This document shows, piece after piece, positions 9,977 through 20,897 of a DNA stretch of 22,010 nt (positions are counted from its first letter, which is position 1; each line of letters begins with the position of its first letter). Made by a program: the position numbers and the translations under genes. The notes beneath the pieces were generated by a model. That model saw nothing but the letters and a program-made list of their open reading frames with translations, did no database searches and had not been told where the DNA came from. The DNA lies in the IMG/VR virus record IMGVR_UViG_3300023240_000133, positions 1-22,010 of that record. One strand, 5' to 3'. This DNA comes from a virus.

Positions 9977-10615
9977 ATGGTGACCATAGAAGACTCAAGA
10001 ATCTCTAAAGCAGAGGGTGGGTTTAGGACTACCTGCAAGTGTGGGGCCGAAGTAGCCTTTACAACTAAATATGGTGCGGTAAAAATGTTGGCCCGGGGTA
10101 CTTGTAGAAACTGCACGAATAAATACCAAAAGGGACAAATTGAGCCCACTGAGGTATACAAAAATGCGGAAGGTAAGTGGAGTAGCACCTGTAGTGGGTG
10201 TGGTAGGGAGCAGGCGTACACTAGGCTGGGCCATGCAAAACAAAGCACAGTTGCAGACTGGCAGTGTAAACTCTGTGTTGGTAAGGCCAGAGGTTATGCC
10301 AAGAACCGGACTGTCGGAGACAAGACTAGAATATACCGTAGAGTAATAAAAAACGCTAGGAATAGAGGGTTGGAGTTTAACCTTACAGAAGAACAGATGT
10401 GGGACACCTATACTGCTAAATGTGCGCTAAGTGGGGTAGACCTCACTACTACGTATAAGGGTGGCACAGCAAGTCTAGACAGAATAGACAGCAGCGTAGG
10501 GTACGTAGTAGGGAATATTCAGTGGGTTGCGGGTAAGGTAAACCTAGCCAAACGCAACTTAACCGACGATGAATTTATATATATATGTATCAATGTAGCT
10601 AATACAAGGGTTTAG
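9977..10615 (+). CDS. HNH-type endonuclease with two N-terminal zinc ribbons
   Basis: A 212-aa protein. Two Cys4 clusters come first: C20/C22 with C43/C46 (CKCG...CRNC), and C72/C75 with C97/C100 (CSGCG...CKLC). They probably bind zinc and contact DNA. After a basic linker, the C-terminus has CALSGVDL, ASLDRIDSSVGYVVGNIQWV (about 165-184) and KVNLAKRNLTDDEF, typical of HNH-like phage nucleases; D168, D171 and N180 are candidate active-site residues. The first His of the classical motif is not obvious (LDRID has Arg where other members have His), so activity is uncertain. It stands between small structural genes without interrupting a recognisable frame, as a free-standing homing endonuclease would. 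A packaging-related nicking role is the alternative. Confidence 0.8.
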   Translation: MVTIEDSRISKAEGGFRTTCKCGAEVAFTTKYGAVKMLARGTCRNCTNKYQKGQIEPTEVYKNAEGKWSSTCSGCGREQAYTRLGHAKQSTVADWQCKLCVGKARGYAKNRTVGDKTRIYRRVIKNARNRGLEFNLTEEQMWDTYTAKCALSGVDLTTTYKGGTASLDRIDSSVGYVVGNIQWVAGKVNLAKRNLTDDEFIYICINVANTRV

Positions 10616-12484: not shown

Positions 12485-13114
12485 GTGAATTATACTGAGC
12501 TTAAAGTAAATATTCAGGATATCTGTGAGCAGACTTTTACAGAAGACCAGCTTGCCATGTTTGTTAAGCAGGCGGAGCAGTTCGTATATAATACTGTTCA
12601 GATACCCGCTTTGCGCCGTAACCAGACAGGGGCGCTTGGGGTGGGTAATAGCTACCTTATTTACCCTACAGATTTTCTCTACACGTTCTCACTTGCCGTT
12701 ATTGACGCTACGGGTAACTATGAGTACCTGTTAAACAAAGATGTAAACTTCGTGCGGCAGGCGTATCCAAACCCTACTAGCACTGGCAAACCCAAGCACT
12801 ATGCCGTGTTTAGTGATACCTCTTTTATACTAGGCCCGACTCCAGATGCTGCTTATGCTGTGGAGCTACACTACGGGTACTACCCTGAGACTATTGTAAC
12901 CGCGGGGACCACATGGCTAGGGGATGAGTTTGACTCTGCTCTGCTTAACGGGGCCTTAGTACAAGCAATTCGTTTTATGAAGGGTGAGCCTGATATGCTT
13001 GCGCTTTACGAGAAAATGTTTACCCAAGCGTTATTACTGCTCCGCAACCTTGGGGATGGTAAGATGCGTGAAGATATGTACCGCTCTGGGCAAGTAAGAA
13101 TCCCAGTAGCATAA
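12485..13114 (+). CDS. phage adaptor protein (head-tail connector, putative)
   Basis: A 209-aa protein starting at GTG 12485 with GGGAG upstream. The N-terminal helices (YTELKVNIQDICEQTFTEDQ, LAMFVKQAEQFVYNTVQIPA) are followed by a beta domain (NSYLIYPTDFLYTFSLAVID, YEYLLNKDVNFVRQAYPNP, KPKHYAVFSDTSFILGPTPD, YAVELHYGYYPETI) and a C-terminal helical bundle (LLNGALVQAIRFMKGEPDML, ALYEKMFTQALLLLRNLGDG). This helix-beta-helix order is that of phage adaptor proteins such as the SU10-type neck adaptor, which forms a ring under the portal. The GTG start is the only reasonable one here. Confidence 0.7.
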   Translation: MNYTELKVNIQDICEQTFTEDQLAMFVKQAEQFVYNTVQIPALRRNQTGALGVGNSYLIYPTDFLYTFSLAVIDATGNYEYLLNKDVNFVRQAYPNPTSTGKPKHYAVFSDTSFILGPTPDAAYAVELHYGYYPETIVTAGTTWLGDEFDSALLNGALVQAIRFMKGEPDMLALYEKMFTQALLLLRNLGDGKMREDMYRSGQVRIPVA

Positions 13115-13591: not shown

Positions 13592-14275
13592 ATGACTGAC
13601 GGCTGGGGTCGAAATACTTGGAGTTCAGGCTCTTGGGGAGAAGGCGTTGATGCAACTGTTCGCTTAGGCGTATGGGGGCGTGGTTCGTGGGGCCAAGGTG
13701 CGTGGGGCGGAGGCTTAGGTCTTGCTACTACAGGCGTAGTAGGCTCAGTTCAGGTAGCGGCGGGTGCAGTTGTTGTCCTTACGGGGGTTCAGTCTACTTT
13801 TGCTCTAGGTAACGTAGCGGTTACGGGCGAAGCGGGTGCAGTTAGTGTACTGGGTAACGCCTCTGACGGATATGTGGGTACAGCCACGATACAGGCTTCC
13901 GCTACGGTCAACCCAACTGGGGTCCAAGCCCTAGGGCAAACAGGCGAAGCCCGAGTTGTAGAAACTACTGGAGTTGTGCTTGTAGGACTCCAAACCAACT
14001 CAGCACTGGGTATAATCGGGGTAACAGGGGATGCCACTGTTACCGAGGTTGGCGTACAAACAAACTCTTCCCTCGGCAATGTAACAGTCCTACTACAGCA
14101 GAATGTAGACGTAACTGGGGTACAGGGCACTACAGCACTAGGTGAAACAACACAAACAGCACTGGCTAATGTTTATATAACAGGGGTAAGTGCCACTGGC
14201 GGAGTAGGAAATGTACTAGTCTGGAGCGAGATTGTTCCGGGTGGCAACCCTAATTGGATTGATGTAGCAGCATGA
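13592..14275 (+). CDS. Trp-Gly and TGVQ-repeat protein, probable virion surface
   Basis: A 227-aa protein of unusual composition. Residues 4-41 repeat short W-G units (TWSSGSWGEG, VWGRGSWGQGAWGGG). From about residue 60 to 212 a degenerate unit recurs about six times, built on [T/V]G[V/L]Qxxx[A/S]LG followed by alternating Val: LTGVQSTFALGNVAV, PTGVQALGQTGEARV, VGLQTNSALGIIGV, VGVQTNSSLGNVTV, VTGVQGTTALGE, ITGVSATGGVGNVLV. Such units suggest a beta-helix or stacked beta repeats, common in fibres. No clear ribosome site precedes ATG 13592. Its stop overlaps the next ATG (ATGA). It is probably a structural or fibre-base protein; the exact role is unknown. Confidence 0.65.
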   Translation: MTDGWGRNTWSSGSWGEGVDATVRLGVWGRGSWGQGAWGGGLGLATTGVVGSVQVAAGAVVVLTGVQSTFALGNVAVTGEAGAVSVLGNASDGYVGTATIQASATVNPTGVQALGQTGEARVVETTGVVLVGLQTNSALGIIGVTGDATVTEVGVQTNSSLGNVTVLLQQNVDVTGVQGTTALGETTQTALANVYITGVSATGGVGNVLVWSEIVPGGNPNWIDVAA

Positions 14276-14503: not shown

Positions 14504-15847
14504 ATGCCTACTTTTAATAACAACTTACGACTTAAAGAAATCACCACAGGTGATGAGGACGGTACTTGGGGCACTAGCACTAACACCAACCTTGAGCTTG
14601 TTACCGACGGTTTTAGCTACGGCACAAAGGATATGGCGGCTGACGCTGATGAAACCTTCACAATGCCTGATGCTACGGCTGACGCTACTCGCGGTTTCTA
14701 CCTAAAGTTTACCTCAGGTGTATCGCTAACCGCTACACGCACGATTACACTCGGCCCCAACACCATATCCAAGGTGTGGATGATTGAGAACGCTACAACG
14801 GGCAGCCAGACCCTCACGATCAAGCAAGGTTCAGGCGCTACAGTAGATGTCCCTAGTGGCAGTAAGCTGATGGTGGTTACCGACGGTGCTGGCGCAGGCG
14901 CTGCGGTACTTAATGCTAACCCTACTGAAATAGGCGGCAGTGTTACCTCTGTAGCAGTAACTGGAACGGTTAATGGAATTACGCTTACAGGAGGCCCAGT
15001 TACCAGCTCCGGCACTTTCACGCTTGGCGGGTCTTTGTCGGATGTGGACCTTACCTCACAGGTTACAGGCACCCTGCCTACCGCTAACGGGGGTACGGGT
15101 ACTACCGCTACTACCTTTGCTAACCTGACTACCAATGTCACAGGCACACTACCTGTCGCTAACGGTGGTACTGGCATTACGTCCCTTGGGGCGGGTGTTG
15201 CGGGCTTCCTTGGTACTCCGTCTAGTGCAAACCTTATAACGGCAGTAACGGACGAGACGGGTACAGGTGCTTTGGTATTCGCTACTAGCCCGACATTTGT
15301 TACTCCAGTCTTAGGAACCCCCGCTTCTGGGGTAATGACTAACGTTTCAGGAACAGCGGCCTCTTTAACCGCTGGACTTGCTACGGACACAGTAACTAAG
15401 ACCGGAACAGGTTCTACCTACGCGACTAATACCTCACCTACGTTTGTGACACCGGTTCTTGGTACACCCGCTTCTGGCACGTTGTCAGGATGCACGGTTG
15501 ATGGCACAGACGCGGTTGGCTTCCGTAATATCCCCCAAAACAGACAGTCTGCCAACTACACATTAGTGCTTACAGACAACGGAAGGCATATCTTCCACCC
15601 ATCTAGTGATGCCAGTACCCGAACATACACCATCCCCGCAAACGCCTCCGTGGCTTACCCCATCGGAACCGCGCTTACTTTTGTCAACATGACAAGTCAG
15701 GTAGTGTCTATTGCAATAACAACAGACGTAATGCGGTTGGCGAAAGACGGAACTACTGGAACACGGAGCTTGGCGCAATATGGTTCTGCGACTGCGCTAA
15801 AGATTGAGTCCGCACTGTGGCTCATCAGCGGGAGCGCCTTAACGTGA
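14504..15847 (+). CDS. tail fibre protein
   Basis: A 447-aa protein, ribosome site GGAGA. The N-terminus (MPTFNNNLRLKEITTGDEDG, TWGTSTNTNLELVTDGF) looks like a fibre base. The central region carries classical fibre repeats: TGTLPTANGGTGTT and TGTLPVANGGTGIT (about 188-228), and SPTFVTPVLGTPASG twice (residues 262 and 311). The C-terminal domain (about 335-447: RNIPQNRQSANYTLVLTDNG, RTYTIPANASVAYPIGTALT, TRSLAQYGSATALKIESALW) is a common distal fibre domain. It probably forms a trimer that contacts the cell surface. The stop TGA overlaps the GTG of the following propeller gene, so the two are likely co-expressed and may act in one adhesion structure. Confidence 0.88.
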   Translation: MPTFNNNLRLKEITTGDEDGTWGTSTNTNLELVTDGFSYGTKDMAADADETFTMPDATADATRGFYLKFTSGVSLTATRTITLGPNTISKVWMIENATTGSQTLTIKQGSGATVDVPSGSKLMVVTDGAGAGAAVLNANPTEIGGSVTSVAVTGTVNGITLTGGPVTSSGTFTLGGSLSDVDLTSQVTGTLPTANGGTGTTATTFANLTTNVTGTLPVANGGTGITSLGAGVAGFLGTPSSANLITAVTDETGTGALVFATSPTFVTPVLGTPASGVMTNVSGTAASLTAGLATDTVTKTGTGSTYATNTSPTFVTPVLGTPASGTLSGCTVDGTDAVGFRNIPQNRQSANYTLVLTDNGRHIFHPSSDASTRTYTIPANASVAYPIGTALTFVNMTSQVVSIAITTDVMRLAKDGTTGTRSLAQYGSATALKIESALWLISGSALT

Positions 15848-16896
15848 GTGGTGCACTACTAGCAGTTTTTCAGAACCAGCGGGGGTTTGTCACTGTTCCG
15901 AGTGGACCATTCTTCGTAGCAACCGCTCACTTTACAAGCCCTAACGTTTCAGCTTACCCTTGGAGCGCGTCAGGGTTTGGGACTAAGTTTTCTAATCCTA
16001 GTACATTACCCACCGCAACTGGCAACGATGTTGCCTTCAGCCCCGCTGGAACTGAGATAGCAGTAGGCCACACCTCAAGCCCTTATGTTTCAGCTTACCC
16101 TTGGAGCGAGTCAGGGTTTGGGACTAAGTTTTCTAATCCCGGCACTTTACCTACAGGCAATGGCAACGCCGTTGCCTTCAGCCCCGCCGGAACTGGGATA
16201 GGTATAGCTCACAACTCAAGCCCTTATCTCGCAGCTTACCCTTGGAGCGCGTCAGGGTTTGGGACTAAGTTTTCTAATCCTAGTACATTACCCACCGGAA
16301 CTGGCAACGGCGTAGCATTCAGCCCAGCAGGAACTGAGATAGCTATAGGCCACACCACAAGCCCTTACGTTTCAGCTTATTCTTGGAGTGCTTCTGGATT
16401 CGGGGCTAAATTCGCTAACCCTGGCACTTTACCAACATTTACTGGCGACGGCGTTGCCTTTAGCCCCACTGGAACTGAGATAGCTATAGGTCACAACTTA
16501 ACCCCGTTTGTCTCGGCTTACCCTTGGAGTGCATCGGGATTTGGGACTAAGTTTTCTAACCCCAGCACTTTACCTACAGGCGATGGCAACGGCGTTGCCT
16601 TCAGCCCAGCAGGAACTGAGATAGGTATAGCTCACGCAGCTTACCCTTATGTTTCAGCTTATCCTTGGAGTGCTTCAGGGTTTGGGACTAAGTTTTCTAA
16701 TCCTAGTACATTGCCAGCAGGAATTGGAGCGAGCATTGCCTTCGACCCCGCTGGAGCTGCAATACTAGTAGGCCACCAGTCCAGCCCTTATCTCGCAGCT
16801 TACCCTTGGAGTGCTTCTGGATTCGGGGTTAAATTCGCTAACCCTAGCACTTTACCCACCGGAACTTGCCAAGGTGTAGCATTCACCGCACTATAA
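15844..16896 (+). CDS. seven-bladed beta-propeller protein, putative receptor-binding
   Basis: About 350 aa built almost wholly from seven 47-residue repeats of the form PYVSAYPWSASGFGTKFSNP, then STLPTGTGNG, then VAFSPAGTEIAIGH. VAFSPAGTEIA resembles the start of WD40/YVTN-type propeller blades. The first repeat lacks its VAFSPAG strand, and the C-terminus ends GVAFTAL, which would complete the ring (velcro closure), giving seven blades. The frame is open from ATG 15817, but GTG 15844 overlaps the fibre stop (GTGA) and has GGGAG nine bases upstream, so I prefer it. A Val/Phe-rich stretch (VSGALLAVFQNQRGFVTVPS) precedes the ring. It probably binds host surface molecules together with the fibre; the ligand is unknown. 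Confidence 0.82.
   Translation: MSGALLAVFQNQRGFVTVPSGPFFVATAHFTSPNVSAYPWSASGFGTKFSNPSTLPTATGNDVAFSPAGTEIAVGHTSSPYVSAYPWSESGFGTKFSNPGTLPTGNGNAVAFSPAGTGIGIAHNSSPYLAAYPWSASGFGTKFSNPSTLPTGTGNGVAFSPAGTEIAIGHTTSPYVSAYSWSASGFGAKFANPGTLPTFTGDGVAFSPTGTEIAIGHNLTPFVSAYPWSASGFGTKFSNPSTLPTGDGNGVAFSPAGTEIGIAHAAYPYVSAYPWSASGFGTKFSNPSTLPAGIGASIAFDPAGAAILVGHQSSPYLAAYPWSASGFGVKFANPSTLPTGTCQGVAFTAL
15928..16893 (+). repeat. seven tandem 141-bp coding repeats
   Basis: The AGCTTA-type anchor (GGCTTA in the fifth unit) occurs at 15951, 16092, 16233, 16374, 16515, 16656 and 16797, each exactly 141 bp apart with no indels. Units 4 and 7 share a variant block (GATTCGGGG, then AAATTCGCTAACC). Units 2 and 5 share ATAGGTATAGCTCAC. 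This shows an extra three-unit (423-bp) periodicity. The repeats encode the propeller blades. Confidence 0.97.
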
Positions 16897-19049: not shown

Positions 19050-20897
19050 ATGCCACTACAAAAACTACAGATAAAACCCGGTGTAGACCGGGAAAGCACC
19101 CGCTATGCTGCTGAAGGTAGTTGGTATGAGACTGATAAGGTGCGTTTTAGACGGGGGTTTCCCCAAAAGATAGGGGGGTGGGTAAGGCTTTCTAGCTCTA
19201 CCTTTCTTGGCGTATGCCGCTCTATGCACAACTGGGTTACCCTTGGCAGCCAGAACCTTGTCAGCGTGGGCACCAACTTAAAGTACTACATAGAACGCGG
19301 CGGAGCCTATTATGATATTACGCCTATCCGCTCGACTGCTACCCTAACTAACCCCTTTACTACTACGTTGGGCTCCGCGGTTGTGGGGGTTACAGATACA
19401 TCTCACGGGGCAATTGAAGGTGATTACGTTACTTTTAATGGGGCTTCTGCGGTTGGTGGGCTTACTCTAAACAATGAGTACGCAATTTCTTTTATAACCG
19501 AAGACGCATATAGCATAACAGCCGAGACCACAGCTTCCTCGGGAGCAACGGGCGGAGACACCGTTACTGCGGCATACCAAATAAACACAGGCTCCGAAAT
19601 AGCAGTACCCTATACAGGCTTTAGTGCAAGTACTTGGGGCGCTGGAGGTTGGGGCGTTGGAGGCACTACGTTCTCACCCATACGTTTGTGGAGTCAGGCT
19701 AACTTTGGTGAAGATTTATTATTTGCCCATCGTGGGGGGCAGCTAATGTACTGGGATGCAACTAACTCGGTATCTACACGGGGGGTGTACGTGTCGTCTT
19801 TAGCAGGGGCCTCTGATGTGCCCACTATCGTCAATTCTGTGTTGGTGTCCGACATTTTTCGCTTCGCACTATGCTTTGGTACTACCCCCCTAGGTTCCAC
19901 AGTTTTAGACCCCATGCTAATCCGTTGGTCTGCTCAAGAAGATGTGGCTAATTGGACTCCCGAAGCTACTAACCAAGCAGGTAGCTTGCGATTCTCTAGT
20001 GGTACCGAGATTGTTAAGGCCTTGCAAGCGCGTCAGGAGATTTTGATCTGGACTGATACTGCACTTTACGGCCTACAGTACCTAGGAGCCCCCGAAGTGT
20101 TTGGTGCCCAATTGTTGGGAGATAACATAACCATAGCCAGCCCCAACGCGGCAGTTTATTCGGGTAACGCAGCCTACTGGATGGGTTCTGACAAGTTCTA
20201 CTACTACGAGGGTACGGTTAATACCCTCCCTTGTAGCCTACGCGGGTACATATTTAATGACTTTAACAAAGCGCAGTACTCACAAGTGGTAGCGGGTACT
20301 AACGAGCGGTTCGACGAGGTTTGGTGGTTCTATTGCTCTGCGGGGTCAACTACGATAGACCGGTATGTGATATACAATTACGTGCAAGAAATATGGTACT
20401 ACGGCACGATGGCACGCACAGCTTGGATGGATGCAGATTTAAGAGAGCAGCCTACCGCCGCTACGTACTACAACAACTTAGTGCAGCATGAAGTAGGGTA
20501 TGATTCTCAAGAAACTGCCACTATAGAACCCATTACAGCCACCATACTTTCCTCTGAGTTTGACTTAGATGACGGGGATAAGTTTATGTTTGTTAGGCGC
20601 GTACTGCCCGATGTGACGTTCATAGACTCAACTGCGGAAAACCCTGCGTGTGTAATGACGCTACTGCCTATGGAGAACTCAGGCTCGGGCTACAATACTC
20701 CTACGTCTCAAGGTGGGGTAGACAACGTAACCGTGACGCGCACTGCAACCGCGCCTATAGAAGAATTTACGGGGCAGGTTTTTATCCGAGTACGGGGTAG
20801 GCAGATGGCCTTTAAGCTAGAGTCTACTGAACTGGGTGTGGCTTGGCGGCTTGGCCTACCACGTTTAGACATGCGGCCTGACGGCCGGAGGGGGTAA
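19050..20897 (+). CDS. tail hub / stabilisation protein (P22 gp10-like)
   Basis: A 615-aa protein. The N-terminus (KLQIKPGVDRESTRYAAEGS, WYETDKVRFRRGFPQKIGGW) matches the pattern of phage stabilisation proteins related to P22 gp10, which form the hub under the connector and plug the DNA channel. Later parts (RLWSQANFGEDLLFAHRGGQ, LMYWDATNS, ILIWTDTALYGLQYLGAPEV, WMGSDKFYYYEGTVNTLPC, YNYVQEIWYYGTMARTAWMD) read as a beta-propeller-like hub core. A WGAGGWGVGG insert lies at about residue 194. A C-terminal segment (GQVFIRVRGRQMAFKLESTE) fits a final strand. No strong ribosome site precedes ATG 19050. The gene follows the lysis cassette directly. Confidence 0.75.
   Translation: MPLQKLQIKPGVDRESTRYAAEGSWYETDKVRFRRGFPQKIGGWVRLSSSTFLGVCRSMHNWVTLGSQNLVSVGTNLKYYIERGGAYYDITPIRSTATLTNPFTTTLGSAVVGVTDTSHGAIEGDYVTFNGASAVGGLTLNNEYAISFITEDAYSITAETTASSGATGGDTVTAAYQINTGSEIAVPYTGFSASTWGAGGWGVGGTTFSPIRLWSQANFGEDLLFAHRGGQLMYWDATNSVSTRGVYVSSLAGASDVPTIVNSVLVSDIFRFALCFGTTPLGSTVLDPMLIRWSAQEDVANWTPEATNQAGSLRFSSGTEIVKALQARQEILIWTDTALYGLQYLGAPEVFGAQLLGDNITIASPNAAVYSGNAAYWMGSDKFYYYEGTVNTLPCSLRGYIFNDFNKAQYSQVVAGTNERFDEVWWFYCSAGSTTIDRYVIYNYVQEIWYYGTMARTAWMDADLREQPTAATYYNNLVQHEVGYDSQETATIEPITATILSSEFDLDDGDKFMFVRRVLPDVTFIDSTAENPACVMTLLPMENSGSGYNTPTSQGGVDNVTVTRTATAPIEEFTGQVFIRVRGRQMAFKLESTELGVAWRLGLPRLDMRPDGRRG

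Follow-up and report, generated by a model that had tools for sequence, protein, structure and literature searches.

The gene at positions 15844-16896 (forward strand) of the window analysed here, the complete 22,010-nucleotide stretch of viral DNA in IMG/VR record IMGVR_UViG_3300023240_000133 (positions 1-22,010, to which all window coordinates refer), encodes a 350-amino acid protein which, on the basis of its predicted structure, is very probably a closed seven-bladed β-propeller with a split closing blade. We consider, with a probability of roughly 0.78, that this protein is a distal tail-fibre adhesin, one face of which, carrying about 28 variable residues, would bind a structure on the host surface. 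The computed evidence comprises the predicted fold, the quantisation of repeat unit counts, the fusions found in relatives, position-specific variability and a raised ratio of non-synonymous to synonymous polymorphism (pN/pS).

A predicted closed propeller built from 47-residue units

The reading frame is open from GTG 15844 to the TAA stop codon ending at 16896, and nearly all of the translated product is repetitive. The repeat cores begin at residues 37, 84, 131, 178, 225, 272 and 319, giving six steps of exactly 47 amino acids or 141 bp each, while Tandem Repeats Finder (TRF) calls the array at 15935-16856 with a period of 141 (score: 973; score of the triple period: 1208). The original prediction of seven 47-amino acid units of exactly 141 bp holds for the number of cores and their spacing, but only six units are full length (15952-16092, 16093-16233, 16234-16374, 16375-16515, 16516-16656 and 16657-16797, all on the forward strand). 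The seventh (16798-16893) has a core of 32 amino acids ending in GVAFTAL, and its missing part is supplied by residues 22-36, such that the array occupies residues 22-350 and amounts to 7 x 47 = 329 residues. In the AlphaFold2 model, strand a of the split blade, which closes the ring, is C-terminal (residues 342-349; 16867-16890), while strands b (residues 23-29; 15910-15930) and c (residues 35-41) are N-terminal. The closing blade composed of N- and C-terminal pieces had been predicted from the repeat pattern, and this split recurs in relatives.

The AlphaFold2 model of the propeller, based on an alignment of 46 propeller sequences, has a predicted local distance difference test (pLDDT) score of 93.0 and a predicted template modelling (pTM) score of 0.89. 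Every blade is made of four strands, the last of them short and the other three long. Residues 1-16 (15844-15891) form the sole segment without confident structure (pLDDT <50), and this N-terminal piece is a possible flexible link to the fibre. Among the matches listed, the best superposition is on the seven-bladed crystal structure 7bid (Z: 39.9; 1.7 Å over 286 residues), covering model residues 23-350, while further seven-bladed propellers were matched by Foldseek and VIA-align (1l0q, Z: 36.8; 2ymu, Z: 35.3; 6nau, Z: 34.5). As residues 23-350 superpose on closed rings and residues 342-349 are assigned as a strand, the ring is predicted to be closed. The closed seven-bladed ring that had been anticipated is thus supported by the model, by its superposition on closed seven-bladed crystal structures and by the clustering of core counts at seven, 14 and 21 described below.

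A Pfam scan of the protein returned no family at an E-value of 0.1 and the dipeptide WD is absent from its units, and as such assignment to the WD40 family proper (PF00400) was rejected. The label of a WD40-like propeller is nevertheless backed by a family-profile search, which gave four sequence matches, including 2ymu (e-value: 1.1e-24) and 6r60 (e-value: 2.9e-7). The sole significant library match is to phrog_19311, a family of unknown function (e-value: 7e-23). The best fold matches in BFVD include A0A6J5SDD4 (42% identity) and Orf76 of phage POR1 (24% identity; TM: 0.87-0.89).

Four IMG/VR scans yielded at least 295 loci, including that of the window, and in the last of these scans at least 582 stretches were confirmed of the 600 matches listed. 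Since several scans could fetch the same contig, identical arrays were merged into 147 distinct arrays, three of which are cut by contig ends and were excluded. The 144 complete arrays that were counted, the window's included, contain seven cores in 116 cases, 14 in 17 and 21 in four, such that 137/144 are multiples of seven; an earlier count of 59 clusters from the first 80 loci gave the same picture. This quantisation favours a closed ring, as an open solenoid would not require multiples of seven. The seven remaining open reading frames (ORFs) have 13 cores (7+6; L075), nine cores (L160), five cores (L019:1787-2548, L065:1-990 and L241:3-1262) or, in L128, four and two cores in two ORFs. The ORFs of L065 and L241 run past the 5′ end of their contigs; as the arrays themselves begin far from that end, they were included among the complete ones. 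All three five-unit arrays may be real or may represent collapsed assemblies. Clustering at 85% identity gave 127 representatives, the window protein being one. In 127/127 of these the last detected unit position falls within 29-32, while the first is 30-36 in 88/127 and 15-29 in 9/127; in the other 30/127, among them the window protein, the short N-terminal piece was missed by the unit profile. A scan of bacterial genomes added two relatives in 70 stretches.

Probable coupling of the propeller to tail fibres

Directly upstream of the propeller gene lies an ORF encoding a tail-fibre-like protein of 447 amino acids (14504-15847, forward strand), which shows only a weak PHROG match (phrog_31104; e-value: 1.2e-4). 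The last 116 residues of this protein (15497-15844) are predicted with confidence to form a β-domain (AlphaFold2 pLDDT: 87.4) resembling T4 gp9 and the XD1 domain of CBA120 TSP4. Its best match is the capsid spike of Pseudomonas phage Pa223 (Z: 13.2; Foldseek e-value: 1.4e-5), followed over the same domain by TSP4 entries (Z: 9.3-10.2 at 5.6-6.4 Å; Foldseek e-value: 8.3e-5) and T4 gp9 (1qex; Z: 9.3; 2.3 Å over 89 residues), while CpaA (6o38) and StcE (4dny) are also matched. PMC8825819 describes the XD1 fold as what seems to be a spacer that separates interacting modules, with homologues among the glycan-binding domains of CpaA and StcE.

The propeller and fibre genes of the window share the four nucleotides GTGA (15844-15847), in which the GTG start overlaps the TGA stop codon of the fibre ORF. 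An in-frame alternative start exists at GTG 15817. The start at 15844 is favoured, as a Shine-Dalgarno-like GGGAG (15830-15834, read by eye) is found nine nucleotides before it and the syntenic relatives L018/L019 and L137 place an ATG, with the sequence SGA..AV, at the identical 4-nt overlap with the fibre stop.

A fibre C-terminal domain of the type found in the window precedes the propeller in the same frame in 57/127 clusters (one such fused relative is L004:3549-5987), while in 40/127, including the window's, the propeller is a separate gene whose possible start and the stop of the preceding ORF overlap by one, four or eight nucleotides. For 32 of these 40, the C-terminus encoded by that preceding ORF is a fibre-tip-like domain (XD1-like in five and another C-terminal domain in 27). 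The link to a fibre proposed in the original prediction is therefore upheld, both by fusion of the window-type tip domain ahead of the propeller in relatives and by overlapping genes elsewhere. The 57 fusions belong to a group of 62 clusters with a long lead sequence, in which four others show an FN3-like motif and the last, L058, is in fact a separate gene upstream of which the frame stays open; the remaining clusters were classed as other (20) or have no upstream sequence (five), and a number of the leads extend upstream of the true start codon. Collagen matches were obtained for 4/62 leads and 7/60 upstream ORFs, Mtd_N matches for 2/62 and 5/60, and matches to the commonest tail-fibre PHROG for 4/62 and 14/60, respectively. 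A short N-terminal adapter with the motif PGG.I.KTPVT....GVWTL.....KQGLWP, or a shorter form thereof, is found in L028 (6965-8110), L027, L040, L092, L101, L108 and L275, and may be a virion attachment module.

Relatives also occur in named phages. A collagen fibre gene in POR1 is followed by that of the propeller Orf76 with an ATGA overlap, while in CGphi29, a phage of Salicola, the propeller lies within a single 562-amino acid protein, which passes the cut-offs of both PF00400 WD40 (34.1 versus 27 bits) and PF10282 Lactonase (37.9 versus 21.7 bits). The relative in MW202701 has 14 cores, and genes near it are annotated as tail assembly chaperone, holin and peptidase M15. In Pseudomonas phage ZRG1 (L083:4161-5960), whose host is Stutzerimonas stutzeri, a long proline-rich linker of the PDPDPT type joins the propeller relative to a tail-terminator domain (phrog_4204; e-value: 1.6e-14), a fusion that may present the propeller at a site other than the fibre. 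A 2823-amino acid protein of Xanthomonas phage XacN1 (L087:2274-10745), annotated as glycerophosphoryl diester phosphodiesterase, includes a region matching the propeller (28% identity; e-value: 2e-8). Finally, in a metagenome-assembled genome of a gammaproteobacterium (L084:5183-6978) a fibre ORF (phrog_19976; e-value: 1.7e-6) overlaps a propeller ORF as in the window; tail genes and an integrase-like ORF can be seen nearby by eye, and the locus is probably a prophage.

Hypervariable positions, apparent selection and possible blade turnover

Variability was determined over 849 gap-free units from the 127 representatives, using a local profile that by its design holds position 1 constant and does not extend to position 47. 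The most variable unit positions are 41, 25 and 23 (entropy: 3.46, 3.31 and 3.22, respectively), followed by 42 (2.54), and the same four also vary most between the blades of a single protein. Four such positions per blade amount to about 28 per ring. They are situated at the end of the d-a loop and start of strand a, and in the b-c loop. Each of strands a, b and c runs opposite to the one before it, which should place positions 23-25 (start of a) and 41-42 (end of b) together on a single face, with loops 6-7 and 30-34 on the reverse side of the ring. Arginine, which makes up 0.7% of residues over the units, accounts for 17.9% at position 25, where asparagine, tyrosine and phenylalanine are also common. 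A histidine adjoins the hypervariable positions at the end of strand b (unit position 40) in every blade of the window protein (residues 29, 76, 123, 170, 217, 264 and 311) and in 647/742 family units covering this position, producing a ring of histidines without a known role.

Ten non-overlapping close pairs, compared by gapped alignment and differing at up to 21% of nucleotides, gave a pN/pS of 1.48 at the four hypervariable positions (bootstrap: 1.09-2.08), against 0.60 at other positions on the same face, 0.21 in the opposite-face loops and 0.16 in the core. The pS is 0.20 at variable and core sites alike, and pN at the variable positions exceeds that of the core in 10/10 pairs. Five pairs drawn from loci outside the alignment that defined the positions gave values of 1.33 and 0.16 at variable positions and core, respectively. 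Earlier runs (1.70 for six overlapping pairs; 1.23 for five pairs aligned without gaps) are superseded by this analysis. Among the relatives, one face of the ring appears to evolve rapidly under selection, in the manner expected of a surface that binds the host. The hypervariable positions with pN/pS above one lend indirect support to the binding role that had been predicted, for which a glycan would be a candidate ligand.

Taken together, we suggest the following arrangement. The fibre encoded at 14504-15847 would end in its XD1/gp9-like β-domain, and the propeller would be made alongside it from the start overlapping the fibre stop and be expected on the fibre tip, a position favoured because relatives carry both domains in one chain; in the window, docking to the fibre would presumably be non-covalent. 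The ring would serve as a rigid scaffold, each blade of which presents about four exchangeable residues on the same face. Present in the virion, this variable face would bind a host surface structure, probably a glycan, and act in receptor binding.

Blades within one protein are 71% identical in the 46-sequence alignment. Across proteins, blades at the same position are no closer (63.7%) than blades at different positions (63.5%), and in several close pairs a blade finds its best partner at another position. Two whole blades differ between L018 and L019; the L019 gene resembles that of L018 with two blades deleted, which may instead reflect a collapsed assembly. A search for the reverse transcriptase RVT_1, which was positive in 3/14 control genomes, found none among 28 records, comprising that of the window and 27 from which other loci came, some of which may be fragments. 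The absence of a detected reverse transcriptase, together with blades that match best at other positions, suggests that variation may come from exchange among blades, although short-read assembly errors may mimic it. A further model, possible but more likely wrong than right, is that the family diversifies without a retroelement: recombination would duplicate, swap and delete blades while the number of blades remains divisible by seven, and a combinatorial host-binding face would result from selection on the roughly four residues that each blade displays, in a logic like that of repeat-based immune receptors.

Alternative readings and known propeller adhesins

Several observations weigh against a fibre-tip adhesin. 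Phage operons often contain genes that overlap by a few nucleotides, and as such the overlaps observed here show linkage only. Every single fibre family was found in just a minority of the leads and upstream ORFs, the 'APT' fibre-tip is our own label for a domain built from upstream ORFs, a different short adapter precedes the propeller in 12/127 clusters by a loose motif count, and the ZRG1 relative sits on a tail-terminator protein, not a fibre. The relatives in cultured phages are distant (26-28% identity), and the unit profile resolves one, three and five cores in POR1, CGphi29 and ZRG1, respectively, not seven. Variability does not differ significantly between the presumed binding-face loops and those of the opposite face (Mann-Whitney p = 0.16), which limits the variability claim to individual positions, not the whole face, while pN/pS was calculated at positions picked for their variability, in ten pairs only and uncorrected for multiple hits. 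Virion proteomics of a family member was not found in the literature searched. The accessible parts of the CGphi29 paper report no visible tail fibres (PMC6518143); those of the XacN1 paper, which includes virion proteomics, likewise report none, and ORF384 is absent from its main text (PMC5852040).

Other genes of the window give some indication of the virion type. The ORF at 12485-13114 belongs to the SU10 adaptor family (PF24175; e-value: 1.7e-20) and, together with the ORF at 19050-20894 (phrog_3287, virion structural protein; e-value: 1.5e-65), suggests a short-tailed phage. An endonuclease VII/HNH-like gene (9977-10615; phrog_1035; e-value: 9.3e-23) lies within the head-tail module, and a V/G-rich ORF (13592-14275) shows internal VGVQ..ALG.. 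repeats by eye and returned no match in the family scan.

Propellers occur in podovirus tail-tube proteins, and the SU10-type adaptor of the window would suit a structural role in the tail tube or nozzle, of the kind known from T7 or SU10. This role is scarcely credible for a gene that is paired with fibres and of which some phages carry several divergent copies, and the ORF at 19050-20894 would be a better nozzle candidate. A non-virion protein encoded beside the fibre, either an assembly factor or an intracellular WD40-like protein, would be in keeping with a sole library match of unknown function, but it is rendered extremely improbable by relatives fused in frame to fibre, collagen, FN3 and Mtd_N sequences and by pN/pS above one at a few positions. 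The likeness to 6-phosphogluconolactonases among the fold neighbours (Z: 34.5) and the Lactonase match of the distant CGphi29 relative raise the question of a fibre-borne enzyme of the lactonase, sialidase or depolymerase type, and phage endosialidases are propellers (PMC4901313). We regard this as highly improbable, as the blades are near-identical with their conserved residues repeated in every one, leaving no asymmetric active site to be seen, several loop positions are the least conserved, and the window protein matches no Pfam family at an E-value of 0.1.

A more serious, though still unlikely, contender is that the propeller, displayed on the virion, binds glycans and thereby anchors the phage to mucus, exopolysaccharide or particles, and does not serve as the host receptor binder. 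This would account for the several paralogues on some contigs (three each in L028 and L035), the fusions to FN3 and to the ZRG1 tail terminator, and the clusters with a short adapter in place of a fibre. The commonest partner is, however, the fibre tip (57/127 fused, plus 32 overlapping), in some cases with Mtd_N, and strong diversification at a few positions fits an evolving receptor, although variable polysaccharides could fit too. If the propeller is indeed a distal fibre adhesin, a large and mostly unannotated family of environmental phages encodes host-recognition proteins identifiable by their sequence alone, whose likely contact residues are indicated by repeat position. The family would then offer a natural case, open to testing without a retroelement, of an adhesin that diversifies on a symmetric scaffold, and could help in assigning hosts to uncultured phages.

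The gene placement is similar to that of gp38 of T-even phages, an adhesin with its own gene immediately behind that of the long fibre, on whose tip it sits; gp38 is built from glycine-rich helices, whereas the window protein is predicted to be an all-β propeller. In Mtd of Bordetella phage BPP-1, a C-type-lectin domain is varied by a retroelement. Mtd_N also heads some propeller proteins of the present family (L077), but here the variable module is the propeller and RVT_1 was found in none of the 28 records. Near-identical blades are shared with the repetitive WD40-like propellers 2ymu and 6r60, which are named only as WD-40 repeat proteins; unlike these, the present family is a phage-fibre family with hypervariable positions. 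Uncultured Caudovirales WD40/YVTN proteins (A0A6J5SDD4 and others) and POR1 Orf76, which are among the best fold matches, are annotated as WD40-like or uncharacterised. PMC9218822 describes their continuous amplification from single blades and records highly repetitive propellers in both cells and viruses.

No paper on this propeller sequence family, nor on phrases of its repeat, was found in the literature searched. The adhesin type can accordingly be called little-described, as had been claimed, with respect to the sequence family in that literature, but not more broadly, since phage receptor-binding propellers have already been published (PMC4901313). There, Gp45 of Staphylococcus phage phi11 is presented as a receptor-binding protein with a propeller on a stalk and proposed N-acetylglucosamine (GlcNAc) binding, the seven-bladed propeller gp131C of PhiKZ (PDB 4GBF) is located at the baseplate periphery with speculated roles in receptor binding or cell-surface degradation, and PRD1 P2 is named with these two among the known or putative propeller receptor binders. 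The likeness to gp131C is one of description, as 4GBF is not among the sequence or fold matches listed. Like phi11 Gp45, the present family joins a propeller to the fibre chain, through in-frame fusions in relatives and a separate overlapping gene in the window, but Gp45 has five blades and forms a homotrimer, each chain of which also contains the stem, platform and tower, whereas the window protein has seven near-identical blades in a chain of its own. As both propellers in receptor-binding proteins such as that of phi11 and repetitive propellers were already known, the family represents a variation on a known theme.

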